64,000 nt of DNA from Limnomonas spitsbergensis (Eukaryota > Chlorophyta > Chlorophyceae > Chlamydomonadales): the NCBI GenBank assembly GCA_037349105.1, contig JAYJMM010000009.1:1674001-1738000 (forward strand). The letters are read 5' to 3'. The notes below the pieces were generated by a model. It did not search any database, was not told the DNA's origin, and worked only from the letters and a program-made list of their open reading frames with translations. This document shows, one piece after another, positions 768-64,000 of the stretch. The position numbers were made by a program, and so were the translations under genes. Each line of letters opens with the position of its first letter. Positions within the stretch are counted from its first letter, which is position 1.

Positions 768-848
768 CGTGGGAGCCAGAGGCGAGAGCTGCCGGTTGTT
801 GCTGGTCCGCTTCCCCGCGAAGCTCTTTGCTCGGGTGGGCTGCATGAC
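768..848 (-). CDS. Kinase gene exon 12 (tail)
   Basis: Acceptor CCCTCAG then 27 codons beginning VMQPTRAKSF and ending LAPT, then donor GTAAGG. It is phase 0 at both ends, matching the exon at 3458-3201. It is basic and Ser/Thr-rich with no domain. A partial upstream copy lies at about 965-1012, and a copy of the donor edge at about 645-675. The next exon must lie left of the window. Confidence 0.7.
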
Positions 849-6800: not shown

Positions 6801-9800
6801 GCCAGCACTGGTTAATTGATTAACTAACACACTGTGTACCGCCATGGCCAGCGGTACATGGGCACATCCATCTGGATGAAATACTCATGAATTCATGTGC
6901 ATGATTCATTTGTCGTTGCTGTACGTTTTATTTATTTGTCGTTTCTTTACGTTTTATTTATTTGTCGTTTCTTTACGTTTTATTTATTGGTCGTTTCTTT
7001 ACGTTTTATTCATTTGTCGTTTCTTTACGTTTTATTTATTTGTCGTTTCTTTACGTTTTATTTATTTGTCGTTTCTTTACGTTTTATTTATTTGTCGTTT
7101 CTTTACGTTTTATTTATGCATTCATGTGCGAGTTCACGCGCATGATTTACTTATAAATTCATTATGTTCTATTTATGAATTAATGTGCATGATTTGTTTC
7201 TCATAGACCGGTACCGTACCGTACCAGTTAACATGTACAGCACTCTCTGTCTCATATCATGTTTCCCAGCGTTTTGAAGGTCTGACAAATCGGCCTTTCA
7301 TTTTCTGTTGGACACTTGGGGAAAGGGGAATGAATTGCGATCCCGATGCGTGTCCCCCCAAAAAAGCCGCACGCACTGGCGCTTGCAAATGGATGTTTTG
7401 ACACCCTCTGCCGTTAGCAACAGTTGCCGGTATAGGGGGGAAATGAACTCCGGTCTCCAGTCCCCTCGCGTATACACAAGAGAAAGCGCACTGGCGCGCA
7501 AATGGCTGTTTCGACGCTCTCTGCCGTTAGTAACAGCTACCGGTATCATAGCAGAAATGAAATCCGGACCCCGCGCGTATACACAAAAAAACATAAATTA
7601 ACAAAATCACGGTTTCAATTTACTGGTTCGTTTTTCTGATCGGCGGCGGCTGATATTTTTGTTTACGATCACTGGTTCGTTTTTTCTCCAGAACCACCAA
7701 AACAGCAAACATGTGCCAGAGCAGCCCGTGCCTTCGCTGTAACAAAACAAAACTGTTTTTTGATCATAAGGACAGTACCGTAGTGATACGATGAATTGGT
7801 GATACGATGAATTGGTGATACGATGAATTGGTGATACGATGAATTGGTGATACGATGAATTGGTGATACGATGCATTGGTGATACGATGATATTATTGGT
7901 TCTAAATCTTAAAAACCCCAAAATCTAGTTAAAATCGATGGAAAATAAAAAAATGTGAAATTAAATTGGTTAATGGTTTCGACCGCGTTTTCGACAGTGA
8001 TTTAAATTGGTTATTGATTTTTTACATCGCCGGCTTTGGTTCAATCAAACTCAGGGGTCCATAAACACTGTCATCCTCGGCATGATCCACAGCCCTTCAC
8101 AAACCACTTCATGCACCCCGTGGACTTGCTTGCAGCAACAGCCGCACCCAGCCTCTGCCACCCCTGATCTAGCTCCTCCTCATCTGATTCCTCCTACGTT
8201 TATTATTTATATATATACATACGTTTATTATATATATATATATATATACATACGTTTATTATATATATATATATATATACCTTTATTATTTTATTCAACA
8301 ACGGTACCGGTATAGCTTTATCATAATAACCTGTGGACACAGGTTCTTCTGCAGGTTGTTCAGTTCGTTCATGATGACCTGCAGCGACGGCCGCAACTCC
8401 ACCATCTCGGCCCAGCAGCGCTCCGCCAGGAACTTGTACCTGAAGCAGGCAGTATTTATTGTTTTAGGGTTCAGGGTTAAGGGTCTAGGGCTTAACCTTA
8501 AATCCTAAACTAGCCAGGAACTTAAAGTTGAGGCGGGCACAATTTCTTTTTTAGGGTCAGGGTTAGGGGTTACTGGCCTTACCCTAAACTAGCCAGTAAC
8601 ATGTACCTGAGACGGGCAGTTTTTCTTTGTTTAGGGTTAAGGATTTAGGGCTTAACCCCGAAGCCCTAAACTAGCCAGGAACTTGTACCTGAGGCGGGCA
8701 GTATTTTTTGCTATTAGGGCATCTTCAGCAGGCCGCCCTTGTTTAGGGTTAAGGGTTTCAACCTGTTACTAGGCAGCCCTGCGGCCGCATAAGGCCCAGC
8801 GGGGCAGAGCCAGGATGGGCCCATGACCAAGGTAGATTGGCTGGGCAGAACTGCCCCCCCCAGCCAGTGGCCAGAGTGTGGCTGACATGTAGCTGAGTCA
8901 TGAAAAAAGAAACGCTGGAGTTGGCGCGGAAGGGACTTCCCATTCATGATCATCTTGCCGTGAAGGCAGGTCCGGGGTGGGTGGGTGGGAGGGATGTCTT
9001 TGCGGCAAACGAGATGTTTTGCGGCCACTCAGCCGAAGCTATAATAGTGATTTTTGAAGTGCACAGATGTACCGTAAACTAATCTGACCATGTAGGCAGT
9101 TGGGCACACATTGGAAGGGGCAGGGGCACGGAAGGGTTTTGCATCCATGATCCTTCTTTGTAAAGCCGCTACACCAAGAGGTATCGCGATGCTAAAAGGA
9201 GACTACGCATCAACTACGTGCCGCGCATCCTTACAACTCTCCCCCCCCTAGAAGCACGGAGGCACTCTCCCCCCCCTAGAAGCACGGGGGCACTCTCCCC
9301 CCCCTAGAAGCACGAGGGCACTCTCCCCCCCCCTAGAAGCACGGAGGCACTCTCCCCCCCTAGAAGCACGGGGGCACTCTCCCCCCCTAGAAGCACGGGG
9401 GCACTCTCCCCCCCTAGAAGCACGGAGGCACTCCCCCCCCCTAGAAGCACGGAGGCACTCCCCCCCCCTAGAAGCACGGGGGCACTCTCCCCCCCCTAGA
9501 AGCACGGGGGCACTCTCAACCCCTAGAACCACGGGGGCACTCTCCCCCCCTAGAAGCACGGAGGCACTCCCCCCCCCTAGAAGCACGGAGGCACTCCCCC
9601 CCCCTAGAAGCATGGGGGCACTCTCCCCCCCTAGAAGCACGGGGGCACTCTCCCCCCCCCTAGAAGCATGGGGGCACTCTCCCCCCCCCTAGAAGCATGG
9701 GGGCACTCTCCCCCCCCTAGAAGCATGGGGGCACTCTCCCCCCCCCTAGAAGCATGGGGGCACTCTCCCCCCCCTAGAAGCATGGGGGCACTCTCCCCCC

Positions 9801-15800: not shown

Positions 15801-18800
15801 GAGACAGCTGGGGAGATAGCTGGGGAGACAGCGGGGGAGATAGCTGGGGAGACAGCTGGGGAGACAGCTGGGGAGACAGCTGGGGAGACAGCTGGGGAGA
15901 CAGCTGGGAAGACAGCTGGGGAGACAGCTGGGGAGACAGCTGGGGAGACAGCTGGGGAGACAGCTGGGAAGACAGCTGGGAAGACAGCTGGGGAGACAGC
16001 TGGGAAGACAGCTGGGGAGACAGCTGGGGAGACAGCTGGGGAGACAGCTGGGGAGACAGCTGGGGAGACAGCTGGGGAGACAGCTGGGGAGACAGCTGGG
16101 GAGATAGCTGGGAAGACAGCTGGGGAGACAGCTGGGGAGACAGCTGGGGAGATAGCTGGGGAGACAGCTGGGGAGATAGCTGGGAAGACAGCTGGGGAGA
16201 CAGCTGGGGAGACAGCTGGGGAGATAGCTGGGGAGACAGCTGGGGAGATAGCTGGGGAGACAGCTGGGGAGACAGCTGGGGAGATAGCTGGGGAGACAGC
16301 TGGGAAGACAGCTGGGGAGACAGCTGGGGAGACAGCTGGGAAGACAGCTGGGGAGACAGCTGGGGAGACAGCTGGGGAGACAGCTGGGAAGACAGCTGGG
16401 GAGACAGCTGGGGAGACAGCTGGGGAGACAGCTGGGGAGACAGCTGGGGAGATAGCTGGGGAGACAGCTGGGGAGATAGCTGGGGAGGCAGCTGGGGAGA
16501 CAGCTGGGGAGACAGCTGGGGAGACAGCTGGGGAGACAGCTGGGGAGACAGCTGGGGAGACAGCTGGGGAGACAGCTGGGGAGACAGCTGGGGAGACAGC
16601 TGGGGAGATAGCTGGGGAGACAGCTGGGGAGATAGCTGGGGAGATAGCTGGGGAGACAGCTGGGGAGATAGCTGGGGAGGCAGCTGGGGAGACAGCTGGG
16701 GAGACAGCTGGGGAGACAGCTGGGGAGACAGCTGGGGAGACAGCTGGGGAGGCAGCTGGGGAGAGAGCTGGGGAGGCAGCTGGGGAGACAGCTTGGGAGA
16801 TAGCTGGGGAGACAGCTGGGGAGATAGCTGGGGAGACAGCTGGGGAGATAGCTGGGGAGACAGCTGGGGAGACAGCTGGGGAGACAGCTGGGGAGACAGC
16901 TGGGGAGACAGCTGAGGAGATAGCTGAGGAGATAACTAGGGAGACAGCTGGGGAGACAGCTGGGGAGACAGCTGGGGAGACAGCTGGGGAGACATCTGAG
17001 GAGACACTGCTGTACTGCACTGTATCATGCTATACTGCACTGTATCATGCTGTACTGCACTGTATCATGCTGTACTGCACTGCATCATGCTGTACTGCAC
17101 TGTATCATGCTGTACTGCACTGTATCATGCTGTACTGCACTGGTTCATGCTGTACTGCACTGTATCATGCTGTACTGTACTGTATCATGATGTACTGCAC
17201 TGTATCACACTATACCGCACTGTATCATGCTGTACTGCACTGTATCATGCTGTACTGCACTGTATCATGCTGTACTGCACTGTATCACACTATACCGCAC
17301 TGTATCATGATGTACTGCACTGTATCATGCTGTACTGCACTGTATCATGCTGTACTGCACTGTATCATGCTGTACTGCACTGTATCACACTATATCGCAC
17401 TGTATCATGCTGTACTGCACTGTATCGTGCTGTACTGCACTGTATCGTGCTGTACTGCACGGTATCGTGCTGTACTGCACTGTATCATGCTGTACTGCAC
17501 TGTATCACACTATACCGCACTGTATCATGCTGTACTGCACTGTATCATGCTGTACTGCACTGTATCATGCTATACTGCACTGTATCATGCTGTACTGCAC
17601 TGTATCATGCTGTACTGCACTGTATCATGCTGTATCGCACTGTATCATGCTGTATCGCACTGTATCATGCTGTATCATGCTGTACTGCACTGTATCGCAC
17701 TGTATCGTGCTGTATCGCACCATATTGACCCGTATGGTGCAACCAGCCTCCGACCGGAGGCCCAAGCAGCGTAGCTGGCTGCACATGGGGCCTCTAACCG
17801 AAGGCCTGGAGGTAGCTGCCCGTAGCTGAACTGTAGCTGACCGTAGCTTAACCTTAGCCGAACCGTAGCTGACCTGTAGCTGAACTGTAGCTGAACTGTA
17901 TCGTAAATCTCCCTATTCTAAACCTTAAACCCTACACCTTTAAACCCGTGCCGTATCGCACCGTATCGTGCTACCTTGGCGACCAGATTCCGACCGGAGG
18001 CCCATGCACCACGCACATTCTCCCCCGTGTAAATCTCCCTTCATCCTTAACCTTTAACCCTAAACCTTGAACCTTTACCCTAAACTTTTAACCTAAGCCT
18101 TGAACATTTGAACCCTGAACCCTATGCATCACGCACCTTCTCCCCCCTGTAGATCTCCCTTAATCCTTAACCTTGAACCCTTAACCTTGAACCCTACACA
18201 CCTTCAACCTACAGTTCAACCCTCAACCCTGAATATTTTAACCTAAACCCTGCACCTTTTAACCCTGAACCCTATGCACCCCGCACCTTCTCCCCCGTGT
18301 ACATCTCCCACATCAGCACCCCGAGCGCGTAGATGTCGGCCTTTGTGGTGAGCGTGCCCTTGGACAGGAGCTCGGGCGGCACGTGCGTCACGGTGCCAAA
18401 GGTCTGCGTCTTGATGTGGTTCTTGTCGTCTTGGAGCACGCGGCTCAGACCAAAATCAGAGACCTGAAGGCAGAAACAATAAGGTCTTGCATGATGCATG
18501 TGAGCATAGCATAGCATAGCCTCAGGGTCAGGGCTACAGGATATAGGCTCATTACAAACCCAGTCCCCCACACTGTCCACACCTTTGCAATGTACTTGCG
18601 CCGGTCCAGCATGTTGGTGGATAGCAGCACGTTGACCGCCTCCCCCCCCTCCAGTCCTCTACACTGCCCCCCACACTGTCCACACCTTTGCAATGTATTT
18701 GCGCCGGTCCAGCATGTTGGTGGATAGCAGCACATTGACCGCCTCCCCCCCGTCCAGTCCTCCACACTGCCCCCCACACTGCCCCCCACACTGTCCGCAC

Positions 18801-21800
18801 CTTTGCAATGTATTTGCACCGGTCCAGCATGTTGGTGGATAGCAGCACGTTGACCGCCTCCCCCCCCTCCAGTCCTCCACACTGCCCCCCACACTGCCCC
18901 CCACACTGTCCACACCTTTGCAATGTACTTGCGTCGGTCCAGCATGTTGGTGGATAGCAGCACGTTGACCGCCTCCCCCCCCTCCAGTCCTCCACACTGC
19001 CCCCCACACTGCCCCCCACACTGTCCACACCTTTGCAATGTACTTGCGTCGGTCCAGCATGTTGGTGGATAGCAGCACGTTGGCAGCCTTAAGGTCCCCG
19101 TGTAAAATGCGGTTTTCGTGCAGAAAAATGATGGACCTGCAGATGGATGATCCGTCCGGAATAGGAACAGGGGGAAATGTTGGGGAAATGATGGACCTGT
19201 GGGAGGGTGGTCCGTCTGGAATAGGAACAGGGGGAAATGTTGGGGAAATGATGGACCTGTGGGAGGGTGGTCGTCCGGAAGAGGAACAAGGAAATGCGAA
19301 AGGAGGAGAGGCTTGTATGTTGTCGCACGCGGTTAGTTGTCGAGCAGAAATATCTAGGACTCACACGTGGGCGATACATCCAAAACTGGGGGGAAACTGT
19401 GGACAATATGCTACATGTATGCCCACGAGCAGAGATTTTTTTCTTCTTCTATAAGATATAACTTCTACCCCCTCTCCCCTGCCCTTCCCCATCCCTCCCC
19501 CTCTCCAGCCTCGCCCTCCCCACTAATTGACCCCCCATAAATTCAAGACGTCGTTGAGTATCTCAACCCCCTGCCCCACACCAGGCACCCCGCACTTTGA
19601 AACCTCCTTGAGGATCTCCAGTGCAGCCCAGGCATCCCACTCGACAGTCTGTGCGTCCAGCGGAGTGTGCAGCCTACGGCATGGAAAGCAACAACGGGAT
19701 GTGGGAGAGAGTGCATGGGAGGGTGCATGAGAGGGTACCCGAGAGGGAACAACAGAATACATGGGAGGGAGCATGGACGGAAACAAAACATGCATGGGGG
19801 GCTACATGGGAGAGTGCATGGGAGGGTGCATGGAAGGGTGTATGGAAGGAAACAACAGCGTGCATGGGAGGGTGCATAGGAGGGTGCATGGAAGGAAACA
19901 ACAGCGTGCAGGGGAGGGTGTAAGGGAGGGTGCATGGAAGGGTGCATGGGAGGAAACAACAGCGTGCATGGGAGGGTGCATGGAAGGGTGCATGGAAGGA
20001 AACAACAGCGTGCATGGGAGGGTGCATGGAAGGGTGCATGGGAGGAAACAACAGCGTGCATGGGAGGGTGCATGGAAGGGTGCATGGAAGGAAACAACAG
20101 TGTGCATGGGAGGGTGCATGGAAGGGTGCATGGGAGGAAACAACAGCGTGCATGGGAGGGTGCATGGAAGGGTGCATGGAAGGAAAAAACCGCTTGCATG
20201 GGAGGGTGCATGGGAGGGTGCATGGGAGGGTGCATGGGAGGTGCATGGGAGGGTGCATAGGAAAGTGTATGGGAGGTTGCATGGGATGGTGCATGGGATA
20301 GTGCATGGAAGGAAACAACAGCGTGCATGTGAGGTTGCATGGGATGGTGCATGGGATAGTGCATGGAAGGAAACAACAGCGTGCATGTGAGGTTGCATGG
20401 GATGGTGCATGGGATGGTGCATGGGAGGGTGCATGGGAGGGTGTATGGGAGGGTGCATGGAAGGGTGCATGGGAGGGTGCATGGAAGGGTGCATGGGAGG
20501 GTGCATGGAAGGGTGCATGGAAGGGTGCATGGGAGGGTGCAGGGGGGGCAGCATGGGAGGGTACATGGAAGGGTGCATAGGAGGGTGTATAGGAAAGTGC
20601 ATGGGAGGGTGCATGGTAGGGTGCATGGTAGGGTGCATGGGAGGGTGCATAGGAGGATGCATGGGGGGGGGGGCATGGAAGGGTGCATGGGAGGGTGCAT
20701 GGGAGGAAACAACCACTTGCATGGGAGGGTGCATGGGAGGGTGCAAAGGAGGGTGCATGGGAGGGTGCATGGGAGGGTGCATAGGAGGGTGCATGGGAAG
20801 GTGCATGGAAGGACACAAGCTTGCATGGGAGGGAGCATGGGAGGGTGCATGGAAGGAAACAACAGTGTGCATGGGACAGTGCATGGAAGAGTGCATGGGA
20901 GGAAACAACAACGTGCATGGGAGGGTGCATGGGAGGAAACAACAGCGTGCATGGAAGGAACAACAGCGTGCATGGAAGGGTGCATGGGAGGGTGCATGGG
21001 AGGGTGCATGGGAGGGTGCATGGGAGGGTGCATGGAAGGGTGCATGGAAGGGTTCATGGAAGGGTGCATGGGAGGGTGCATGGGAGGGTGAATGGGAGGG
21101 TGCACGGGAGGCCCTTTGGCATACACAGTGACAGCGTTCTGGACAGCGATCAAAGGGTTCATCTCCCTCTCCCTTCCCCCGCCCCCTGCGCTGACGCACA
21201 GGAATGTTGACAGACCCCTGGACAGGGAGCCCTTGTCGCAGAACTCCATGATGATGTGCCACTCGAAGCTGGGGGCGCCGAGGTTGGCGTCCTTGGCTCC
21301 AGCGGGCACATGGCCCTGGAGAAGCTGCTTCTCCAGCGCAGCTAAGGCAGGGTCCACCTGGTCGCCCATGTGCGCAATCACCTGAAAGGTATGGGGGAGG
21401 TATGAAGGGGGGGGGGTATGAGGGAGGTATGGAAGAGGTGTGAAGGAGGTGTGGACATGTAGTTAAGGTATATAGGAGGTATGGAAGATATGTGGGGGAG
21501 CTGGCTCTTGAGAAGCGGCTTCTCCAGCGCAGCCAAAGCGGGGTCCACCTCATCGCCCTTGTGCGCAATCCCTGAAAGGTATGATTATCCAAACGATGCT
21601 GTCATCCTCTATCGCGTTCATGTGCATCGCTTCCATGAGAGCAAACTTCTTCCCATCTTCTCCCCTGGCTTCTTTCCAGCTTTTCCCTTGGCCTCTCCCC
21701 AGCTCCCCCCCCCAGCTTCTCCCCAGCTTCTCCCCAGCTCCTCCCCAGCTTCTCCCCTGGCTTCTTTCCAACTCATCCCCAGCTTCCCCCTTGGCTCCTC

Positions 21801-24800
21801 CCCAGCTTCTTACCAGATTCTCCCCCAGCTTCGCCCCTAGTTTCCCCCCAGCTCCGTCCCAACTTCTCCACAGCTCCTTCCCCTGCTCACCTTCAGTGTC
21901 CGCAGAATGCTGTCATGCTCTTTTGCGCTCATGCACACCGCTTCCATTCGAGATATCTTCTTCCCATCTCCTCCCATGGCTTCTCCCTGGCTTCTCCCCA
22001 GCTTCTCCCCAGCTTCTCCCCCAGCTTCTCCCCAGCTCCTTCCCAGCTCCTTCCCCTGATCACCTTCAGTGTCCACACGATGTTGTCGTGCTCTATCCCG
22101 CTCATGAGCACTGCTTCCATTTCAGCCATCTTCTTCCCATCTCTCTCCCCTTCTTCCCCCCAGCTTTTCCCCAGCTTCTACACAACTTTTCTCCAGCTCA
22201 CCTTGAGTGTCCGCACGATGTTGTCGTGCTCTATCGCACTCATCAGCACCGCTTCCATTTGAGCCATCTTCTCCTTGCGTGCCTCCCACTCATGCTCCTC
22301 GGGCTGATCCGGGTTATGATATCCCTACAGGGAAGAAACAAGGAGGGAGGTATGACGTAGGGGGGAGGTGTGACATAGAAGGGGATGTGTGACGTAGGTA
22401 AAAGGTGTGACGTAGGGGGGAGGCATGAGGTAAGTGGTGTGAGGTAGGGGGGAGGCAAGAGGTAGGTGGTGTGAAGTAAGGGGGTATGATAGGGGGTGTG
22501 AGGTAGGGAAGTGTGAGGTAGGGGGGCATGAGGTAGGGGGTGTCGGGGCTGGGGTGCGTCAAGTGGGGGGGGCGTGAGGGAGGCAGAGACATTGGTAGGT
22601 AGGTGGGTGGGTGGGCGTGACAGGGTCGTCAGACCAACAGGTCACGTGGTTTCAGAGCTGGGGCTGGGTGGTTACCTGACAGGCCCCCAGTTTGAATCCT
22701 GACGCGGCGTGAGGATGCATCAGGGGGCGACGTGGGCGTGGCAGGGTTGTGAGCCCCACAGGTCATATGGTTTCAGAGCTGGGGCTGGGTGGTTACCTGA
22801 CAGGCCCCCAGTTTGAATCCTGGCGAGGCGTGAGGATGCATCAGGGGAGGGATGTAGGCATGGCAGGTTCGTCAGCCCAACAGGTCATGTGACAAGAAGG
22901 GAAGTGTGAGAGAGGGGGGGGAGAACTTGACCGCCTACTGCTCCCCCCGGCCATTGCCCATCTGTTGAAGGTGTGAACCCTCTTGATACCTGATTCATAA
23001 CCCTTACAAGAGTTACACCCGTATACCCTTCCCCCCCTCCCTGCCCCTCATAGCCCACCTGGATGATCTTGACCGCCACTTGCTCCCCATAGTTCCCTTC
23101 CCTGTCCAATGCCCACATGTGTGAGGTGTGAACCCTCTTGAAGCCTGATTCAAAACCCCTCATCCCTCCCCTATCCCTACCATCCCCTCATGGCCCACCT
23201 GTTGAAGGTGTAAACCCTCTTGAAAATTAAATCACAAACCCTACCCCCTTACCAGCCCCTCATAGCCCACCTGGATGATCTTGACCGCCACTCGCTCCCC
23301 ATACTCCCAGTCGGCCAGGTACACATTTCCAAAGCCGCCACGGCCGATGAGCTTCAGCAGCTGAAACGGCTCCTCGTCACGCTCTTCAGGCTGTGGAGGG
23401 GGCAGGGGGGAGAGGAGGAGGGGGGGAAGGGCAACTGATTGGACTGTGTAGGGGGGATGGAGGAGGGCCGATGAGCTTCTGCAGCTGAAACGGCTCCTCG
23501 TCACGCTCTTCAGGCTGTGGAGGGGGCAGGGGGGAGAGGAGGAGGAGGGGGGTTTGGCAACTGATTGGGCTGTGTAGGGGGGATGGAGGAGGGCCGGTGA
23601 GCTTCAGCAGCTGAAACGGCTCCTCGTCATGCTCTTCAGGCTGTGGAGGGGGGCAGGGGGGAGAGGAGGAGGAGGGGGGTGGCAACTGATTGGGCTGTGT
23701 AGGGGGGATGGAGGAGGGCCGATGAGCTTCAGCAGCTGAAACGGCTCCTCGTCACGCTCTTCAGGCTGTGGAGGGGGCAGGGGGGAGAGGAGGAGGAGGG
23801 GGGTTTGGCAACTGATTGGGCTGTGTAGGGGGGATGGAGGAGGGCCGATGAGCTTCAGCAGCTGAAACGGCTCCTCGTCACGCTCTTCAGGCAGTGAAGG
23901 GGGGCAGGGGGGAGAGGAGGAGGGGGGTTTGACAACTGATTGGGATGTGTAGGGGGGATGGAGGAGGGCCGATGAGCTTCAGCAGCTGAAACGGCTCCTC
24001 AGATCTGTTGCAACTTGGGTGATACAGGGTTTATGCGGCAGCATGCAGCCGGCGTCCGGGTTCCAGATGCGCTGTTGCAGCTGCTGAATCGTCCACAGCC
24101 TGAGGAGCGAGATGAAGAGCCATCTCAGCTGTTTCATCCACCTATCCCTCCCCCCCCATCATAGCTTGAGGAGCTTCATGGTGTGTCGTTCCAGCTGCTG
24201 AACCCCTCCTCCTCCCCCATCACCCTCACCTCCTCCACAGCCTTAGGAGCGAGATGAAGCGCTGTGTCAGCTGTTCCATCCAACTATCCCTTCCCCCCCC
24301 TCACAGCTTGAGGACTGGCAGGACGGTGCCGTTTCAGCGGCTGATCAGTTGCCCTTCCCCCCCCACCTCTTCTCCCCCCTGCCTGCTCCACAGCCTGAAG
24401 AGCGTGACGAGGAGCCGTTTTAGCTGCTGAAGCTCATCGGCCCTCCTTCATCCCCCCTACACATCCCAATCAGTTGCCAAACCCCCCTCCTCTTCTCCCC
24501 CCTTTCCCCCTCCACAGCCTGAAGAGCGTGACGAGGAGCCGTTTCAGCTGCTGAAGCTCATCGACCCTCCTTCATCCCCCCTGCACATCCCAATCAGTTG
24601 CCAAACCCCCCTCCTCTTCTCCCCCCTTTCCCCCTCCACAGCCTGAAGAGCGTGACGAGGAGCCGTTTCAGCTGCTGAAGCTCATCGGCCCTCCTCCATC
24701 CCCCCTACACACACTGACCGCAGAATACAGCAATAACGGCAAACCTTTGATCGTGACTCTGACCGCAGGGGGAAAACGGCAAACCCCTGAATCTCCATCA

Positions 24801-27297
24801 GCACAGATCCTGACTCTGATTGCAGAATAAAGAAATAACGGCAAAGACAGCAGATGACGGCAAATAACGACAAATAACGGCAAGCCTCTGTTTGCCCCAC
24901 CTCCATGAGCGCTGACCCAAAATCTGATTGCACGCTGTAGCAGAAGGTCGAGGTTCAATAATACTTATAAAACGTATCACTTAGCCTAAACCCCTAAGAT
25001 GTGCACCCCAAACCCCTACACGCACACCCTAAACCTTTACACCTTCACCCTCAAACCTTTACCCTCAGACCTTCACCCTAAACCATTGAACCTAAAGCCA
25101 TAGACCCTCACGGTTCACACTAAACCATTGTACCTTGAACCTTAAACCCAAACCCCTGTATCGCACCTGGATCAAAGAAAGGAAGAAAGCTCCGCTTTAC
25201 TAAGGCATAGAGGTTAAGGAAACAGCGCAGCTTGGGGTTGTAGCCAACCTTAAACCCAAACCCTGTATCGCACCTGGATCAGAACAGATCCCGACTCCGA
25301 TCGCACACTGTATCGTGACAGCTGCGACATCTGTCGTGACACCTGCAACACACGCACACACAGGTGACAGGGACAAACAAACTTCAAAGGGGGCAAACCA
25401 TCTTGAGTGGGTCAAACATTCTTAAGAGGGGGGGGCAACCACCTTGGGGCTGAGGTGAAAACACCTTTACAAGGGTACAAACCAACTTGGCAGCCAGGAC
25501 TGGGGGGATGGGGGGGGGAGGGGATGTTGGAACAAAGGGTCTGGGGCACAACCTCTGGTAAGGGTGAGAAACCTCGTGAGAGCCAAGGCTAGAAGAAACA
25601 TTGCCCCCCCTCCTTTCCATGCCATGTAGGTTGACATTTATCCAGCCTAGCCAGGCAGAAATCAGCCATGCCTCAACACATTGCTCGACAGCCCATGCGA
25701 TCAACATACCGCTCATAGGCACATATGATCAACATACCATGCATGGCATGCAATCAATGAATGCTCGTGAGCCCATGCGGTCAGCACACCACACTTGGGC
25801 CTATGTAATTAGCACACCGCTCAGTAGCCCATGCCATCCACATGCTGCACAGTAGCCCATGCAACCCACATGCCGCTCAGTAGCCCATTCGATCAACATG
25901 CCGCTCATGGGCCCATGCAATCAACAGAATGCTCAGTAGCCCAAGCGATCAACATAACACATACTAGCCCATGCGATCGACAGAATGCTCAGTAGCCCAT
26001 GCGATCTAAAGAACGTTCAGTGGCCCATGCGATCGACAGAATGCTCAGTTGCCCATGCGGTCCATAGAATGCTCAGCAGCCCATGCGATCAACATGTCGC
26101 TCAGTAGCCCATGCAATCAACATGCCGCTCATGGGCCCATGCGATCAACATGCAGCTCAGTAGCCCATGTGATCGACAGAATGCTCAGTAGTTCATGCGA
26201 TCAACATGTCGTTCAGTAGCACATGCGATCCACATGCCACTCAGTAGCGCATGCGATCCACATGCCGCTCAGTAGCCCATGCGATCCACATGCCGCTCAG
26301 TAGCCCATGCGATCCGCATGCCGCTCAGTAGCCCATTCGATCAACATGCCGCTCAGTAGCCCATGCGATCAACATGCCACAAATCATCCCATGCGACTGA
26401 TAGGCCGGATATGCTTTACTCATTCTGTCGCAACTGCTGCTATCACAGCTGCTATTGCTTCTGTAGCCACTGAAGCTGCTACGGCTTCCATGAGTGCTGC
26501 GACCGCCGTTACTCCTGCATTACCTGCTGCTACTGCAAATCCAGCTAATATTTCTGCCGTTGTTGCTACCGCTGCTACGTCATCTACAACTGCTGCTTCG
26601 TTTATTTCTGCCGATACTGTTCCTATCCATTCTGCTGTTGTATCTTTTGCTTATGTTGCTGCTACAGCTGCTACAGCCCCTGTTGCTAAAGCTCTACCTG
26701 CTGCTACAGCTGATCTCACCATGGGGTTCAGCATCCCGTGATCATCTGTGATAAGGCCCAGGTCCGCACCCACGCCGCCGACGCCACCGAAGGACTTCCG
26801 ATTGGGCGTTCCGCGGTTGGACCCTGCGCGGCTCTCATGGAAGGAGCGGCTGTGCATGCGCACGCCGCTCAGGCCGCTGACATGGCTGACATGGCTGGTG
26901 TTGGAGTTCCGGTACGAGCCGAGCTGGATGACGCCCGAGTGCGCGGCTGAGGGCGCTGCTGACTGGTTGGAGGAGCCGTTGTTGGAGAACTGCGCGGTCT
27001 GCAAGGCGGCGGCCAGGTCCATGTCGGGCCCGATGGCGCCGAGCGTCATCGGCGTGCCTGCAACGTTGCTCGAGGCGATGTTGCTGCTGAGGGCGCTACT
27101 GTCCCTGGTGGGAAGCTGCATGACATGCGGCGCATGCGGTGCATGTGGCACTGGCAACTCTTCCTGCTGGGGTACTGGGGCCACCGGGGTAACCATCAGC
27201 ACCTGTGCCAGCACCTCATGGGGAGGTTCATGCGCAGGGGGTGCTACTGGGGGTGCTGCTGGGAGGGCTGGCTGTACCTGCGGCGGCGTCAGTGGTA

Positions 27298-27340
<43 letters not shown>

Positions 27341-28780: not shown

Positions 28781-28784
28781 CGAC

Positions 28785-34440: not shown

Positions 34441-34476
34441 CTAGGGTTTAGGGTTTAGGGTTTAGGGTTTAGGGTT
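34441..34476 (+). repeat. Perfect interstitial telomere-type tract (TTTAGGG)4
   Basis: Four consecutive TTTAGGG units flanked by single-copy sequence, at the truncated 5' edge of the retrotransposon relic. It is the longest perfect plant-type telomere tract in the window. Confidence 0.95.
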
Positions 34477-35153: not shown

Positions 35154-53162
<18,009 letters not shown>

Positions 53163-53188
53163 GCATTGTTCAGATATCCTGTCACTAG

Positions 53189-53312
53189 GTGCCGCGCCGG
53201 CCGTTAGACGAACCTTCTGTAGCCGATGTTAAGCAGGGGATGCGAAGTACAGCGTGCTGCCTCCTGAAATTGCAAACAGGCCGGGCGTGTGCGTGACGTC
53301 TTGCTCTTCGTG
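53189..53312 (+). pseudogene. Downstream copy of the SELO terminal exon
   Basis: Begins CACTAGGTGCCGCGCCGGCC GTTAGACGAACC and ends GTGACGTCTTGCTCTTCGTG AGC, reproducing acceptor, coding sequence and stop region of exon 15 about 140 bases later. It has small indels and substitutions that break the frame. It lies outside the coding region. Confidence 0.93.
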
Positions 53313-53319
53313 AGCTTTG

Positions 53320-55149
53320 ATGAGAGGCACTGCTCTATTTTAATAAGCTGTTATTTGTGAGCTATGTCGAGATACCCTGCTCAGGGGAGTTACAGCCGAT
53401 ACTGAGATATCATGCACTACGGATAAGCTTCGTGAGCCGAATTGAGATGAACGGTTCGTCATGATTTGAATGGATACATGCGATCCTACTCGTCGGAAGC
53501 CCTGTTGAGATGTCGTACTTCATTCAGATGTGTTGAAAAACCGTGCTCGTTATGAGCGCTATGTTTGTACATTCTTTCTTCATGCGCCATTACGAGGTAT
53601 CTTGGTGAAGACATTTTGCTGCTTGCTGGCCGGACAGGGCTTGCCAACCTGTTTTAATATGATCTACTACTAGTGAGCAGGGGTAAATGGGGTGGCTACG
53701 TTCGAAAGTTTAAGTGGCTTGACCATATCGCTGATTGTCATTCCACGGACGATATACATCAATGACGTAAAACCTCTGGGTCCTTTTCAAAAAGGCTCGA
53801 CCGCGTGGGCACCTAAGAATACGGGCAGAAAAAAAGAAAATTGGGTGATTAAATGAAGGGACAGACAAGGCCCTGGTCAAAAATAAATGTCGGCCATGTT
53901 GGCAAATAAAAAGTCTGCTAATACAAGGTACCTAGTGTGCACGGTTAGCTGCACGAGCCTCTCAATTCAACTACAATGTTGACTGCATGAGCCATTAGCA
54001 GGGCAGAGCCAGCGGGTCAATGACGTAACACCTCTGGGTCCTGCTGAAAAAAGGATCGGCCCCGCGGACGCCTGACTGTATGTTCAGGAGGAAAATAAAC
54101 GAAAGGCGAATACATCTTTCACTATGTTAAGAGCATCCCACCCTAGCCTGCCCTGATACAAATCGTGTAAGTCCGTGGCACCTCCGAGGGGCCTGTCCAA
54201 GACCATGAAGGTGATCCAGCCATGTGTGTGCCCTTTTACTGTGTTTCCTCTTTCCGGCTTTTCCTGACCTTCTGTCAGAGTGGCTGGTATGTTTGTTTCA
54301 TTCCCTTTTTCGAGAGTTAGTATCTGGACGTGTTGGATCTTCCTGGGACTTCCTTCGCTTTTGGGATGGTCTCTTTTCCTCTATTTTGTCGTCTGTTCCT
54401 TTCCTTTATCAAGTAGCCTTAAGTTTATGTTCCTCCCGGCCAGACAGTCAGTGGCCAATGCGGCCAAGCCTTTGCAGCATGGCCCAGAGGTGTCATGTAA
54501 TTGACATGGTAACTGAAACTGCGTGTCAGCTGCTGTTGCTCGGATGGCATGCGATGATGTGCCCTGGAAGTGCTATTTTGTTTTGCATGGGCGCACGTCT
54601 AACCTCAAAATGGCAGGCAGGGGAAAGGGACGACGTGATGCGTATTACCCACTCTTCCCAAGTGCTTCAAAAACCCTAGACACGCCTGCACAAAAACAGC
54701 ACTTAGGAGGTCCCGCCTGGAGATCCTTTTATAAACAAAAATAGGCTTGATGTGCATGTAATTGACCGGCCTGTTATGCATAAGTCAGCGACGTTACACC
54801 TTTGGGCCATGTTTTGGATAAGTATGAGGGGAATCCAAGGGGGGATCCAAGAGGGAATCCCCAACTACTGCGACCACCATGAGTGTTACAACACCATACA
54901 CATTATAAGAACACGACAAATCAGGTTGCGTGGCAGCCAGGTATTTTATTTACCCGGGAGACAAAATGAGTATTTTGAAAACAGAACTGTGAGGAGGCCT
55001 TTAGGCGTCAACAGTAGCCTCTCTTTCTTAATCGTCAGTTGTTCTCGTACCATCCAGGATTGAGACCCCCCCTAAGCATGGCATCAATCGAGGCAGGTTC
55101 CCGATGGATTCGGTGGTGGGCCGCTCTGGGCAGGCAACTGAATGTCACC
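53320..55149. other. Intergenic region with dispersed-repeat copies
   Basis: Three or four copies of the ~55-bp dispersed repeat, two inverted (53760-53815, 54015-54070) and one direct (54450-54510), with a partial inverted copy near 54775-54815. No convincing gene; ORFs up to 151 codons lack recognisable content. Confidence 0.6.
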
Positions 55150-55518: not shown

Positions 55519-55641
55519 CTTTAGCGTTTATATTTTAGATGAGCCAGCAACTTTCGGCTTGGCGTGGTTCAAGACCTTTAACTTGGATTTTACAAAACGC
55601 CAGCACAAAAAACACTTCGTACGCCAGCCCACGTCCGGACC

Positions 55642-56160
55642 TTACTTGCCAGTTCCAGTCGGACTTGGCACGGGTGGCACGGTCGCGTGACTGACATCGC
55701 GTTTAACACGTCGGCAGAATCGGGGGGCTTCCGACACGTCAGCACGCACCTCCCCAGAGCGAACCACCACGCAATGGGCATGTGCATCGCAAGAAGCAAA
55801 CAAAACCACTAGTACCATTCCGGGATCGATTCGTTCAACTAGTCCTACATGATACGTGAAGCCACCTGCAGGACGATTCTCTGTAATCAAACATTTTTTA
55901 ATTTAGGCAAAGGAATTCTGCGCCTTGCAAGTTCAACGAGCCTTGCCTTCAAGTACTCGGCTCAGGCAGCACAGTCTCGGGTACTAAAAACTTACTTGAG
56001 TACTCCCCCGTGACAGGGTCTGGGACGTAATAATCCCATTGGTTCAAATAGTTTAAGTTCATTCTTGACAGGGAAGAGATTAAGCAATTGGGACGTGTCG
56101 AAGGTAAAGAATGACACGCTGGCAATATTGAGACAAAAACTTGGGTCGGGAGCAAGTTTT
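55642..56160 (-). CDS. Possible two-exon gene fragment
   Basis: The minus strand shows an open segment ending NQWDYYVPDPVTGEYS at a CTCAA|GTAAGT donor (about 55996). After a TTGATTACAG acceptor (about 55883) comes KNRPAGGFTYHVGLVERIDP and MVLVVLFASCDAHAHCVVVR to a GCAA|GTAAGG donor (about 55648). The two segments join in phase. No family is recognised, and the first frame is not unique because another reading is also open. Confidence 0.28.
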
Positions 56161-56399
56161 TGGATATGGCGATATGGAGCTGATATTTGGGTCAAATTGA
56201 GTCGTCGTCGAGCCCATATTGTGGTGTGGCCGAAAATATTCACACAAAAGTCGTCGGTTACCTCTCGATATGGAGCAATGCGAACGAACGCGCCCCTGAA
56301 CCGACTCCTATGTCCCCGGAGGAACCTTCATGTCCCGAAGGGATAAGGATGAAAAAACATGTGTGCGAGCGTGCGTGTGTATGAGAGGTTCACTAACTA

Positions 56400-57880: not shown

Positions 57881-58039
57881 GACATGTGGCTGAATCTTTT
57901 GTCCATGGCCCAGAGGTGTCGCATCAGTACATCACGAACTGGAGCAGGTTGTGGGGACCTGCTGGCCACCTGTCCCATGCATTCAATCCGAAGATGTTTT
58001 TGGCAGGGTCTGGAGATGTGAGTGACGTCGTTGCCTAAG

Positions 58040-58375
58040 CCTAACCCGCCGCCACTGCCATGGCCTTTTTTTATATCCCTCACGGCCGAGACTTTTTCTG
58101 CCGTGCCCAGGCGAAGATCGTCATAGCCTAGGCCTTGCCTGCCGCCACCATCATGCCCTTTTCCTTCAGCAGGGCCCCAGCCAGGCGAGGACCGTCATAG
58201 CCTAGGCCTTGCCCGCCGCCACCATCATGCCCTTTTTCATCCCTCACGGCGCCCACATGGCCGAGATCTTTTCAGCCATGCCCAGGCGCGCAACGTCATA
58301 GCCTAGGCCTCGCCCGCCGCCAAAATCTTGCCCTTTTTCGTCAGCAGCGCCTAGCCAGGCAAGGATCGTCATAGC
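58040..58375. repeat. Downstream copies of the M3 peptidase 3' end
   Basis: Four copies (about 58035-58070, 58118-58165, 58192-58235, 58300-58340) of ATAGCCTAGGCCTTGCCCGC CGCCACCATCATGCCCTT, the complement of the last ~12 codons plus stop of the M3 gene. Between them lie CAGCAGGGCC-type pieces resembling the dispersed repeat. Confidence 0.9.
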
Positions 58376-58582
58376 CTAGGCCTTGCCCGCCGCCACCATC
58401 ATGCCCTTCTTCTTGAGCATTGGGTCGATTACGGGGTCGCGGCCGCGGAACGCGCGGAAGGCCGCCCCGGGCTCAATGCTGTTCCCGCTCGAGTAGATGT
58501 ACTTGCGCGCCCGGGCTGCCGTCTCAGGGTCAAAGCATGAGCCGGCCTCGAGGAATGCCTCGAAGCCGTCGGCGTCCAACAC
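58376..58582 (-). CDS. M3 peptidase last exon
   Basis: Acceptor [64 protein letters not shown], stop. FRGRxPxxxxML is the typical end of M3 oligopeptidases. Confidence 0.93.
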
Positions 58583-61500
58583 CTAGGAGTGGAGTGGGAG
58601 GTGTGAGTGTGAGTGTGGGTGTGGGTGTGGGTGTGAGTGTGGGTGTGAGTGTGAGTGTGGGTGTGAGTGTGGGTGTGGGTGTGGGTGTGAGTGTGAGTGT
58701 GGGTGTGGGTGTGGGTGTGGGTGTGGGTGTGAGTTTGAGTTTGAGTGTGAGTGTGGGTGTGGGTGTGAGTGTGAGTGTGGGTGTGAGTGTGGGTGTGAGT
58801 GTGGGTGTGGGTGTGAGTGTGGGTGTGAGTGTGAGTGTGAGTGTGGGTGTGGGTGTGGGTGTGAGTGTGAGTGTGAGTGTGAGTGTGGGTGTGGGTGTGG
58901 GTGTGAGTGTGGGTGTGGGTGTGAGTGTGGGTGTGAGTGTGGGTGTGAGTGTGGGTGTGGGTGTGAGTGTGGGTGTGGGTGTGAGTGTGGGTGTGGGTGT
59001 GGGTGTGGGTGTGTGTGTGAGTGTGGGTGTGGGTGTGGGTGTGGGTGTGAGTTTGAGTGTGAGTGTGGGTGTGAGTGTGGGTGTGAGTGTGGGTGTGGGT
59101 GTGGGTGTGGGTGTGAGTGTGGGTGTGGGTGTGGGTGTGGGTGTGGGTGTGAGTGTGGGTGTGGGTGTGAGTGTGAGTGTGGGTGTGGGTGTGAGTGTGG
59201 GTGTGAGTGTGAGTGTGGGTGTGAGTGTGAGTGTGAGTGTGGGTGTGAGTGTGAGTGTGGGTGTGGGTGTGGGTGTGAGTGTGGGTGTGAGTGTGGGTGT
59301 GGGTGTGGGTGTGGGTGTGGGTGTGGGTGTGAGTGTGGGTGTGAGTGTGGGTGTGAGTGTGGGTGTGAGTGTGAGTGTGGGTGTGAGTGTGGGTGTGGGT
59401 GTGGGTGTGAGTGTGAGTGTGAGTGTGGGTGTGGGTGTGGGTGTGGGTGTGGGTGTGGGTGTGAGTGTGAGTGTGGGTGTGGGTGTGGGTGTGGGTGTGA
59501 GTTTGAGTGTGAGTGTGCGTGTGGGTGTGAGTGTGAGTGTGAGTGTGGGTGTGAGTGTGGGTGTGGGTGTGAGTGTGGGTGTGGGTGTGAGTGTGAGTGT
59601 GGGTGTGGGTGTGGGTGTGAGTGTGAGTGTGAGTGTGAGTGTGGGTGTGAGTGTGGGTGTGGGTGTGAGTTTGAGTGTGGGTGTGAGTGTGAGTGTGGGT
59701 GTGAGTGTGGGTGTGGGTGTGGGTGTGGGTGTGAGTGTGGGTGTGGGTGTGAGTGTGGGTGTGGGTGTGGGTGTGGGTGTGAGTGTGGGTGTGGGTGTGG
59801 GTGTGAGTGTGGGTGTGGGTGTGGGTGTGAGTGTGTGTGTGTGTGTGTGTGAGTGTGGGTGTGGGTGTGGGTGTGGGTGTGGGTGTGGGTGTGAGTTTGA
59901 GTGTGAGTGTGAGTGTGGGTGTGAGTGTGGGTGTGAGTGTGGGTGTGGGTGTGGGTGTGGGTGTGAGTGTGAGTGTGGGTGTGGGTGTGGGTGTGGGTGT
60001 GAGTGTGGGTTTGAGTTTGAGTTTGAGTGTGGGTGTGGGTGTGGGTGTGAGTGTGGGTGTGAGTGTGGGTGTGAGTGTGGGTGTGAGTGTGAGTGTGAGT
60101 GTGGGTGTGGGTGTGGGTGTGAGTGTGGGTGTGAGTGTGAGTGTGAGTGTGGGTGTGGGTGTGGGTGTGGGTGTGGGTGTGAGTGTGAGTGTGGGTGTGA
60201 GTGTGGGTGTGGGTGTGAGTGTGGGTGTGGGTGTGGGTGTGAGTGTGGGTGTGAGTGTGGGTGTGAGTGTGAGTGTGAGTGTGGGTGTGAGTGTGAGTGT
60301 GGGTGTGAGTGTGAGTGTGAGTGTGGGTGTGAGTGTGAGTGTGGGTGTGAGTGTGAGTGCGAGTGTGAGTGTGAGTGTGGGTGTGGGTGTGAGTGTGGGT
60401 GTGAGTGTGAGTGTGAGTGTGAGTGTGGGTGTGAGTGTGGGTGTGGGTGTGGGTGTGAGTGTGAGTGTGAGTGTGAGTGTGGGTGTGAGTGTGAGTGTGG
60501 GTGTGGGTGTGGGTGTGAGTGTGAGTGTGGGTGTGAGTGTGGGTGTGGGTGTGGGTGTGAGTGTGAGTGTGGGTGTGAGTGTGAGTGTGAGTGTGAGTGT
60601 GAGTGTGAGTGTGAGTGTGAGTGTGGGTGTGAGTGTGAGTGTGAGTGCGAGTGTGGGTGTGAGTGGGAGTGCGAGTGTGGGTGTGAGTGGGAGGGGGACT
60701 GGGAGGAGGCGGGGGACTGGGAGGAGGAGGGGGAGGGGGGGGGGGAGGAGGAGGAGGGGGAGGGGAGCAGCGGGGCGAGGCGGGGTGGCATGGTCGAAGC
60801 AGGAGCTAGCCTCGAGGAATGCCTCAAGGCCGTCGGCGCCCAACACCTAGGAGCGGAGTACAGGATTTAGGGTTCAGGGAAACCTGGTTGAGAGTTTTGC
60901 AGGGCGGGGCGGAACGGGTTGAAGCAGGGTAAAGTGGGGCAGGGCGAGCCGGAGCGGGGCGGGGCGAGCCGGGGCGGGGCGGGGCGAGGTACGGCGTTGC
61001 GTTGCGTTGCGGGGCAGGGCGGAATGCCTCGAAGCCGTCGGCGTCCAACACCTAGAGGGCAGTGTTACCCGGACGGAAATACGGTACAGTCAAACGGTAC
61101 GGATACGGTACAGTCAAACGGTACGGATACGGTACGGTACGGCCGAAATGGCCGGACAGGTAAGACAATGGCCAACACGGTGTTTTAACACGGGACGATT
61201 TTGTTAAACGGAGCGATACGATACGGTAAATGGTACAGGATTTGGACCTAAACGGTCGTACTGGGCAACCCTGCTAGGAGGGGAGTGGAGGACGGGAGGT
61301 AAGGGCGTGGAGAAGCTAGGGCGGGGTGGGGAGCAGCGGGCGAGGCGGGGCGGCAGTGGCTCGGTCGAAGCAGGAGCTGGCCCACAGGAACGTCTCGAAG
61401 ACGTCGGCGTCCAACATGTAGGGTAGCACAATGGGACTGGGCGGCTCAGGACTGGGCACTCGTGCAAATCTGAGCAATATACTAATGGGTATACCAGGAT

Positions 61501-64000
61501 CCCTTACCTGCCACCTTCTCCCCAGCCCAGAAGTACACATGGTAGGTGTTTAGGGTTTAGGGCTTCGGTTTTAGGGGTACGGGTATGTTTTCAACCTCGC
61601 ACCTACTAGCCCACCACCGCCCAGAGGTGCGCATACTAGACTTTTCAGATCAAGGGTTCAGAGCACTGACGATTTCACACCACTATCCCATACCTGCAGA
61701 AATCCCCAAACTCTCTGACTGTCTATACCAGCTTGCCACACCCACCAGCACACCGCAGCCCAAAAGTACACGTAATCAGAGCCTTTAGGGTTCAGGGATA
61801 AGGGCATTGGCAAGTTAACACCCTACACATTTAGGATGTGGGGTTTAGGGCATTGGCAAGTTTACACCCTAAACCTTTAGGGTTCAGGGTTATGGGTATT
61901 GGCAATGCACGTAACCAGCATTTAGGATCCAGGGTTTAGGGTTTAGGGTTATGGCAATTTACACCCTGAACCCTGTCCCACACCTGCCAGCTCACCTCAG
62001 CCCAGAGGTACACGTAGTAAGCCGCAGCATAGCTGGACGATGCGAACAAATGCTGGAAGTGCGCTGGACGGTGCCTCATCACGATGCCCTAAGGTTCAGG
62101 GTACAGGGTTCAGGGTGCTGGGTTCAGGGTTCAGGGTGCTGAGTTCAGGGTGCTGGGTTCAGGGTTAAGGTAGAGCTTTACCCCTATAACCAAAGGTACA
62201 CGCAGTAGGCCGCTGCGCAGCTCCGCCATACGAACAAATGCTGGAAGTGCGCCGGACGGTGCCTCATCACGATACCCTAAGGTTCAGGGTTCAGGGTTCA
62301 GGGTTAGGGTAGAGCTTTAACCCTGGGACCAGAGGTACATGTAGTAGGCTGCAGCAAAGCTGGACCATACGAACAAGTGCTGGCGGTGTGCTGGGCGATG
62401 CCTCATCGCGATGCCCTAAGGCTCAGGGTTCAGGGTTTAGGGTGTGGAGATACGGCAGAGCTAGAACCTTGGGATCAGAGGTACATGTAGTAGGCCGCAG
62501 CGAAGCTGGACTATGCGGACAAGTGTTGGAGGTGAGCCAGGCCCGAGGGGTCAGGGCAGCATGTGAGGGGATAGCATGGCATGCTTTAACCTCACACCTG
62601 TGGCATGCCCAAGCGTGCCAGCTCCTTGTCCTCGAAGTCATTGAGGTCCAGCGCCTGGGTCTGCTCAGCAGTCAGCTGATGAAGGGCCTGGTCCACTAGG
62701 GCAGACGCGGTGTACCTTACAAGAGTAAAGCAGGACAGGATCTTGAGTGAAGAAGGGTGGCGGATATGGTGTGAATAAGAGTGATGCAGATGGTCTGCTC
62801 AGCAGTCAGCTGATGAAGGGCCTGGTCCACTAGGGCAGACGCGGTGTACCTAAACAAATTGTGTGAAGAAGGGTGGCGGATATGGTGTGAAAAGAGTGAT
62901 GCAGATGGTCTGCTCAGCAGTCAGCTGATGAAGGGCCTGGTCCACTAGGGCAGACGCGGTGTACCTTACAAGAGTAAAGCAGGACAGGATCTTGAGTGAA
63001 GAAGGGTGGCGGATATGGTGTGAATAAGAGTGATGCAGATGGTCTGCTCAGCAGTCAGCTGATGAAGGGCCTGGTCCACTAGGGCAGACGCGGTGGTGTG
63101 AAGAAGGGTGGCGGATATGGTGTGAATAAGAGTGATGCAGATAGAAGGCCTGGTCCAGTAGGGCAGATGCGGTGTACCTACACAAAAAGGAGATTGTGTA
63201 AAGAAGGGTAACGGATATGGTGTGAACAAGAGTGATGCAGATGGTCAGCTCAGCAGTCAGCTGATGGAGGGCCTGGACCACTAGGGCAGACGCGGTGTAC
63301 CTACTGAAAAATAATGCAAGACAAGAGATTGTGTGAAGAAGGGTGATGGATGTGGTGTGAAGAAGAGTGGCAGCTGTGGTGTGAAGAAGGGTGGCGGATG
63401 TGGTGTGGAAGAGGGTGATGCAGATGGAGAGCCTGGTCCACCAGAGCTGAAGCGGTGTACTTGTAAAATAAATAAATTTGACGTTCCACGATTGACGGAG
63501 ATGGTATGAACAAGAGTGGCAGAGGTGGTGTGAGGAAGAGTGTCAGGGATGGTGTGAACAAGAGTTATACAGATGGAGGGGCCTGGTCCAACAGAGCTGA
63601 AGCGATGTGTGCCTGAAAAATAAAAACATTTTATGCTATAAGGTGCCAACAAGGGTGATGGAGATGGTGTGAACAAGTGTGCCATGGATGGTGTGAACAA
63701 GAGTAATACCGTTGGAAGGCCTAGTTCACCAGAGCTGGAGCGGTGCACCTGGGGAAAAGTTAGATGGTGTGAGGAAGGGTGGCGGAGATAGTGTGAACAC
63801 CAATGACATAGATGGTGTGAACACGAGTAATACCGTTGGAGGGCTTGGTTCACCAGAGCTGAAGCGGTGCACCTGGGGAAAAGTTAGATGGTGTGAGGAA
63901 GGGTGGCGGAGATAGTATGAACAATAATGGCAGAGATGGTGTGAACAAGAGTGTACCGTTGGAAGGCCTGGTTCACCAGAGCTGAAGCGGTGCACCTGGG
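58376..64000 (-). CDS. M3-family zinc oligopeptidase, C-terminal three exons
   Basis: Exons 62715-62598, 62088-61996 and 58582-58376 join in phase to a ~138-residue C-terminus; the rest, including the HExxH zinc site, lies right of 64000. Landmarks: [84 protein letters not shown]. This is the signature order of thimet/oligopeptidase A/dipeptidyl carboxypeptidase-type M3 peptidases, which degrade short peptides; organellar versions clear presequence peptides. The His of AHF and the Tyr residues of YYVYLW, which shape the substrate site in the family, are present. All three exons carry arrays of edge copies. Confidence 0.9.
58588..60700. repeat. 2.1-kb GTGTGG/GTGTGA hexamer array
   Basis: About 350 hexamers of two kinds, GTGTGG and GTGTGA, in irregular order with rare TTTGAG, GTGCGA and GTGTGT variants, beginning six bases upstream of the last-exon acceptor and ending in GGAGGAGG-rich sequence. 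All frames are open, giving fake ORFs of up to 816 codons. TG-rich DNA of this kind can adopt Z-DNA. Confidence 0.98.
60780..61420. repeat. Acceptor-edge copies of the M3 last exon
   Basis: Three copies (about 60785-60850, 61020-61055, 61355-61420) of GAATGCCTCGAAGCCGTCGG CGTCCAACACCTAG, the complement of acceptor plus first ~50 coding bases. They lie upstream in transcript order; the hexamer array separates them from the true exon. GGGCGGGGCGAGCC (60900-61000) and ACGGTACGGATACGG (61080-61145) short repeats lie between. Confidence 0.92.
61500..61995. repeat. Donor-edge copies of the M3 penultimate exon
   Basis: Truncated copies at about 61505-61545, 61605-61640 and 61735-61775 preserve CACCGCAGCCCAGAGGTACA CGTA, the complement of YVYLWAE plus donor. 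GGGTTTAGGGTTCAGGG filler lies between. Confidence 0.85.
61996..62088 (-). CDS. M3 peptidase penultimate exon
   Basis: Acceptor [26 protein letters not shown] then [11 protein letters not shown], donor GTGAGC; phase 0 both ends. Chosen over the three upstream copies because it alone has a correct donor and the family's SYAAxYYxYLW. Confidence 0.93.
62185..62540. repeat. Three upstream copies of the M3 penultimate exon
   Basis: Copies at about 62190-62276, 62327-62416 and 62478-62535. The first two are open throughout (62327-62416 reads [15 protein letters not shown] ... YMYLW) but lack a usable donor next to LW; the third is truncated. Substitutions such as YCVYLWL remove conserved residues. 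Confidence 0.93.
62598..62715 (-). CDS. M3 peptidase antepenultimate exon
   Basis: Acceptor TTGTAAG, completing a codon, then [20 protein letters not shown] and [19 protein letters not shown], donor GTGTGA. It continues in phase into GIVMRH; the family has LGMP-x-x-I-x-x-RHR here. Confidence 0.92.
62716..64000. repeat. Acceptor-edge copies of the M3 antepenultimate exon
   Basis: About ten copies running off the window (near 62792, 62910, 63045, 63140, 63245, 63430, 63575, 63712, 63838, 63965) of GGCCTGGTCCACTAGGGCAG ACGCGGTGTACCT, the complement of acceptor plus [10 protein letters not shown]. Units near the true exon also retain QLTAEQT; distant ones have diverged (CACCAGAGCTGAAGCGG). A GATGGTGTGAACAAGAGTGA 20-mer fills the intervals. 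Confidence 0.95.

Follow-up and report, generated by a model that had tools for sequence, protein, structure and literature searches.

Introns of the snow alga Limnomonas spitsbergensis are likely lengthened by blind local tandem duplication, with selection removing the events that damage exons and leaving arrays that copy a single exon edge. The window, meaning the whole 64,000-nucleotide stretch of DNA analysed here (C9:1674001-1738000), lies in a genome assembly of 260,226,709 bases on 124 contigs. Probe alignment and direct reading showed that exon edges are partially copied in tandem in its kinase, SELO and M3-type peptidase genes, on both strands. The initial annotation had claimed that most exons in these genes carry such copies and that acceptor-type and donor-type arrays both occur; both types were found, and edge copies accompanied 20 of 25 internal exons. 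Copies are ~70-98% identical and arrays span ~0.1-2 kb. No description of exon-edge arrays in an alga was recognised in the literature searched, which covered few subscription journals, and the available portion of the genome paper (PMC11228838) does not mention them. That portion reports introns averaging 788 bp and a repeat content of 33.16%, including unclassified repeats at 22.78% of the genome. The accessible part of PMC11247165 lists intron lengths (mean or median) of 934 bp for Chlamydomonas sp. UWO241, 788 for Limnomonas, 516 for CCCryo 101-99 and 229 bp for C. reinhardtii.

The SELO gene illustrates the arrays most fully. An independent spliced model gave GT-AG boundaries at 13 of 13 introns. 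Edge copies were located by 80-base probes centred on each junction and aligned to the surrounding 6 kb, together with direct reading, which gave the following features (window positions):

36750..53159, + strand: SELO gene, 14 modelled exons with the first exon edge uncertain (spliced alignment of P0003 and P0021)
36801..37051, + strand: donor-edge array of exon 1 (36750-36827)
38209..38771, + strand: donor-edge array of exon 2 (38200-38277)
38848..40114, + strand: acceptor-edge array of exon 3 (40073-40294)
41323..42708, + strand: donor-edge array of exon 5 (41293-41399), period ~125
42830..43219, + strand: acceptor-edge copies of exon 6 (43186-43310)
43598..44004, + strand: donor-edge array of exon 7 (43590-43663), period ~124
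44579..45171, + strand: donor-edge copies of exon 8 (44543-44621)
46571..46712, + strand: donor-edge copy of exon 9 (46548-46608)
47163..48362, + strand: acceptor-edge array of exon 10 (48294-48417)
48373..50548, + strand: donor-edge array of exon 10, split by an insertion
51821..52370, + strand: acceptor-edge and donor-edge copies of exon 12 (52040-52219)
53035..53325, + strand: near-whole copy downstream of the last exon (53049-53159, ending in the stop codon)

Exon 3 is preceded by ~10 copies comprising the acceptor and 30-42 coding bases, and the exon 5 array holds nine further junction-spanning copies that are 91-98% identical to the edge. Such arrays offer a natural experiment in splice-site choice, since most decoy sites are preserved while the genes continue to encode conserved proteins. 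The exon 5 unit, the only one searched genome-wide, gave 11 matches, all at its own SELO locus, and so is not a mobile element. The acceptor edge of exon 10 recurs at seven copy offsets, and the insertion in the donor array of the same exon (48559-50061) is 1.5 kb long with an 8-bp flanking repeat, identified by eye.

The two other array-bearing genes lie on the opposite strand. The kinase model is incomplete, its exons having been placed by hand, and that of the C9 M3-type peptidase was built on E. coli PrlC, with poor similarity and some exons uncertain:

18287..27454, - strand: protein kinase gene, incomplete model of 7 exons
23342..24000, - strand: acceptor-edge array of kinase exon 3 (23271-23390), period 124, 5.3 copies
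24359..24711, - strand: inverted copies of the kinase exon 3 edge array (direct reading and a TRF row)
21596..22272, - strand: donor-edge copies of kinase exon 4 (22202-22324)
18565..19089, - strand: donor-edge array of kinase exon 6 (19031-19136), period 115
58400..64000, - strand: 3' part of the M3-type peptidase gene, running past the window end (E. coli PrlC-based model)
62002..62537, - strand: acceptor-edge copies of M3 exon 61996-62088
58026..58419, - strand: copies of the end of M3 exon 58400-58582

Kinase exon 6 has four further donor-edge copies. Beyond the window the M3 gene continues with PF01432 hits at C9:1742502-1746821. A small gene encoding 107 amino acids had been described as free of arrays, and none were seen in it by eye.

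The survey comprised 19 gene loci, the three window genes plus 16 others, picked by family (SELO, M3, chaperonins) and from the genes named in the initial annotation, out of 18,277 annotated genes. Gene models were made with a purpose-written spliced aligner; 346 junctions passed the splice-site filter, and counted exons were at least 49 nt long. The SELO paralog on C38 was modelled from a distant reference, leaving some exons uncertain. The M3 paralog pair on C41 and C119 gave clean models, the C41 protein being 83% identical to its reference, a Chlamydomonas eustigma protein. E. coli GroEL yielded poor chaperonin models and was replaced by comparison within three paralog pairs, with limits set by conserved exons showing third-position differences, and by a within-genome reference for seven further loci. 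M3 exon 13 proved to be a false exon. Its two junctions were dropped from the 57-junction test and the exon from the 25-exon count; it is still counted in the position profile, the unit lengths, the decay and paralog tests, the direct/inverted totals, and the AG|GT and decoy-dinucleotide tests.

Junction coverage was counted by self-alignment, which is stricter than the probe search and under-detects short periods. By this measure 30 of 57 window-gene junctions lay inside a local tandem copy (32 of 59 in a first version that included the junctions of the false exon). Among 26 internal exons, copies involved the donor edge only in 11, the acceptor edge only in 4, both edges in 5 and neither in 5; the single exon scored as copied whole was the false one. 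Donors were covered more often than acceptors in the window genes (19/29 vs 11/28), a bias that is reversed in the 16 other loci (14/145 vs 20/142) and is therefore not claimed. Edge-array units had a median length of 131 bp with a 5-95% range of 81-257, a spread that speaks against a fixed unit near 120 bp; the median for intron interiors was 119 bp. Local copies were overwhelmingly direct rather than inverted, both in the window genes (28,984 vs 1,495 bp, 19:1) and in the other loci (25,437 vs 481 bp, 53:1).

Array content rose with intron length. Across 160 introns the two were correlated (rho 0.75), array sequence increasing by 0.72 bp for every bp of intron, and most of the added sequence in the long introns of the sample is array. 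None of 16 introns under 150 bp held an array, compared with 25 of 26 introns of at least 1200 bp. Three short-intron loci (L020, L023 and L031) had no array at all, and the single intron of the 107-amino-acid gene, 95 nt long (30016-29922, placed by eye), fits the same rule. The initial annotation had proposed a genome-wide process focused on exon borders. Copying does act beyond the three genes, with local direct copies making up at least 10% of intron sequence in 13 of the 16 other loci and junction-spanning copies present in 11 of them, but the focus on junctions fails the enrichment test given below, which the initial annotation had itself named as grounds for rejection. The window sits in an array hotspot on C9: coverage in 6-kb tiles averaged 0.56 in the window and 0.53 and 0.70 in two nearby C9 stretches, against 0.00-0.37 in ten stretches elsewhere. 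The hotspot is part of the reason that the three window genes looked so striking.

A process of blind duplication and selection would proceed as follows. Head-to-tail duplication of ~80-250 bp segments would occur in noncoding DNA, most strongly in the C9 stretch that includes the window, and, blind to splice junctions, would let introns grow by arrays. A duplication running from intron into exon, or the reverse, would leave a single exon edge intact beside its partial copies, and could persist if the true junction was still used. One that split an exon, or duplicated an entire internal exon together with its two splice sites, would change the mRNA and be removed by selection; one-edge arrays would then be the survivors. 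The copies are presumably spliced out of transcripts. The duplications themselves may be made by slippage, unequal exchange or microhomology-mediated copying. Of the mechanisms suggested earlier, local direct copies are compatible with slippage or repair, while neither R-loops nor junctions are singled out.

The pattern of what is copied agrees with such selection. Among internal exons with two good junctions, no genuine whole-exon copy was found in the window genes (0/25) or the other loci (0/121), against 9.0 and 2.5 expected from blind, unselected placement on a rough, uniform-placement estimate. Measured against that rough expectation, the absence of whole-exon copies is probably due to selection. 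Array coverage also declines steadily with depth into the exon, and these two properties together account for arrays having one full-length copy and otherwise partial ones. The earlier claim that each array has only one full-length copy thus holds for internal exons, with none of the 25 in the window genes copied whole, but not for the last SELO exon and its near-whole copy.

We considered whether the copies are kept as splicing aids, their decoy AG|GT edges acting as recursive or nested stepping sites by which long introns are removed piecewise. Upstream acceptor copies followed by GT do resemble, in sequence, the stepping sites of recursive splicing. Within donor copies, the splice-site GT was preserved more frequently than the remaining GTs (per-array values 0.88 vs 0.74; p=0.004, 36 arrays), a difference that drift alone does not predict. 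Against shifted positions, dinucleotides were better kept at both acceptors (0.79 vs 0.62, p=0.029) and donors (0.85 vs 0.73, p=0.013). However, the acceptor signal vanished once a composition-matched control replaced the shifted positions (AG intact 0.81 vs 0.80, p=0.56, 32 arrays). The enrichment of AG|GT at arrayed acceptors that recursive splicing predicts was likewise absent (17/32 vs 57/139 at other acceptors, p=0.24). Paralogs that have no array at a junction still keep the intron there, so those arrays either postdate the intron or are independent of it. Overall, the retention of donor GT and acceptor AG indicates that decoys are not purged, and a role for the copies as splicing aids appears very unlikely. 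Were they used in this way, their use would explain how the alga tolerates dozens of nearly identical decoy junctions, duplication of an AG|GT edge would be self-neutralising and introns would grow harmlessly, an idea to which we give similarly little credence. Donor-copy GTs would then be under selection, a possibility hinted at by the single control comparison that was positive, and telomere-like motifs of fixed polarity at intron ends would belong to the same splicing context.

The paralogs also bear on the age of the arrays. Arrays occurred in both members at 5 of 83 paralog junction pairs (odds ratio 3.35, p=0.12), a result compatible with some sites being intrinsically prone to arrays. 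The donors of C41 exon 10 and C119 exon 9 share an array with offsets of 133 and 134, a match that points to an array predating the gene duplication.

Amplification focused on junctions, in which breaks, R-loops or template switching at exon borders spread copies away from the splice site, would account for arrays at so many internal exons of the window genes and for the dominance of direct copies. We nevertheless judge it very unlikely, as junctions were not enriched in arrays. In the window genes the 30 covered junctions compare with 34.5 expected from circular shifts (P(sim>=obs)=0.89), and random intron-interior points were covered at 37.2 of 57. With only 57 junctions, a modest enrichment in these genes could be hidden. 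In the 16 other loci junctions were in fact depleted, with 34 of 287 covered against 47.6 after shifting (P(sim<=obs)=0.011) and 56.6 of 287 at random interior points. The position profile across the 19 loci had no coverage peak at junctions. On the donor side of window-gene introns, the first 20 nt were covered at 70% and more distant positions at 58-73%. Acceptor-side coverage in these genes started from 42% at the junction and climbed to 73% by 320-640 nt. For the 16 other loci the junction value was 13-17%, compared with ~25% far into the intron. Detection favours exon edges because selection holds the exon copy constant, which makes the conclusion of no focus conservative; true junction coverage may be lower still. 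The arrays compared are not independent, since interior coverage includes copies descended from exon edges. Duplication thus does not favour junctions, and outside the window junctions are covered less than other intron positions. The short-intron genes L020, L022, L023 and L031 had arrays at none of their junctions. The initial annotation had also held that copies decay with distance and that arrays grow outward from the splice junction. Neither found support: in 14 arrays with at least four junction-spanning copies the median rho between identity and distance was -0.24, with 9 negative and 5 positive, so that no reliable decay was evident. This result carries a caution, as a blind process combined with selection can mimic a pattern aimed at exon borders.

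It is highly improbable that the arrays were created or expanded artificially when noisy long reads were misassembled, although assembly errors do commonly arise from tandem repeats. The assembly was built from PacBio CLR reads, according to the available text of PMC11228838, which also gives a read length L50 of 32.9 kb at 63x coverage, compared with an array span of ~0.1-2 kb. The divergence among copies, the interruption of one array by the 1.5-kb insertion with its by-eye flanking repeat, and the offsets shared between the C41 and C119 paralogs all argue against an artefact. For the most uniform arrays, the assembled copy number may still be wrong. In each 125-bp SELO exon 5 unit the coding part is preceded by AG and followed by GT, as in mutually exclusive or repeated exons, but with no genuine whole internal exon copied (0/146), several exon 5 copies frameshifted and a single-copy model giving the full conserved SELO protein, alternative exons are an extremely remote prospect.

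Blind duplication followed by selection has parallels in known systems. Minisatellites (VNTRs) in introns are likewise local, head-to-tail, imperfect and noncoding-enriched, with unit and copy number varying by locus; TRF and the direct-to-inverted ratios showed head-to-tail direct copies here, and locality was found for the one unit searched. Both edge and interior units are longer, however, than the classical minisatellite range, and arrays in the hotspot are so dense that over half of the junctions fall within them. Tandem genomic duplication as a route to intron gain has been proposed and, according to the accessible part of PMC3443670, shown in vivo. As described there, it too involves a short duplication that carries an AG|GT edge while one copy stays coding. 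In that system duplication within an exon creates a new intron, whereas in the alga duplication on an existing junction yields a longer one. The arrays show how introns can lengthen via short tandem duplications running across splice junctions.

Interstitial telomeric sequences offer a further likeness, as motifs of the TTTAGGG type lie within introns. Those in the alga are short, degenerate and of fixed polarity at intron ends, unlike long interstitial blocks. The TTTAGGG-type motif was also present at 4 of 12 contig ends read. The array hotspot is rich in telomere-like motifs too, which numbered 13 and 23 in the two neighbouring C9 stretches and 0-7 in the ten others.

Donor-edge copies, those spanning the 5' edge of an intron in 36 local tandem arrays, kept the donor GT at a frequency of 0.88, compared with 0.74 for other GTs in the same copies (p = 0.004). 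Telomere-like six-base motifs were counted in the introns of 19 loci (window SELO, kinase and M3 peptidase genes plus L011–L031, SELO/M3 paralogs and chaperonins). Their polarity was fixed by intron end, with the G-strand type at the start and the C-strand type at the end. G-strand motifs reached 8.1 per kb in the first fifth of window-gene introns and 3.6 at other loci; C-strand motifs in the last fifth reached 16.2 and 7.4 per kb, respectively. Shuffled introns gave about 1.4 and 1.3 per kb. C-strand motifs were concentrated 20–100 bases upstream of the acceptor, where their sequence may supply CTAAC, resembling the branch-site consensus, together with an AG-free stretch. CTRAY by itself showed only a weak peak in introns.

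Tandem copies and telomere-like motifs were both abundant at about 1.66–1.77 Mb of contig JAYJMM010000009.1 (window, L009, L010, L047 and L048). This hotspot may mark where a subtelomere once lay or where a fusion took place. Further features of the window are as follows.

Features of the window
48559–50061: 1.5-kb insertion, limits by eye
23342–24000 and 24359–24711: kinase exon-3 edge array, opposite orientations
9236–14905: large satellite block, 27-bp unit
58600–60689: large satellite block, 6-bp unit
56560–57874: large satellite block, 82-bp unit
15686–17006: large satellite block, 12-bp unit
32462–33701 (-): open frames, putative retroelement integrase, by eye

The insertion interrupts the SELO exon-10 donor array, is bordered on each side by TGTGAAAT (48551–48558 and 50062–50069, by eye) and contains an 85-bp tandem repeat of its own. 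It is perhaps a hAT-like DNA transposon. The kinase array is present both ways round, indicating that inverted and direct duplication both occurred there. Satellite blocks lie between or near genes, and the open frames resemble a retroelement integrase carrying a PHD-type zinc finger.

Gene pairs with members on separate contigs of the assembly (C41/C119, C39/C99, C36/C119 and C84/C114) had exons mostly about 80–92% identical in aligned pieces and mostly unalignable introns, which together suggest a large-scale duplication of old date.
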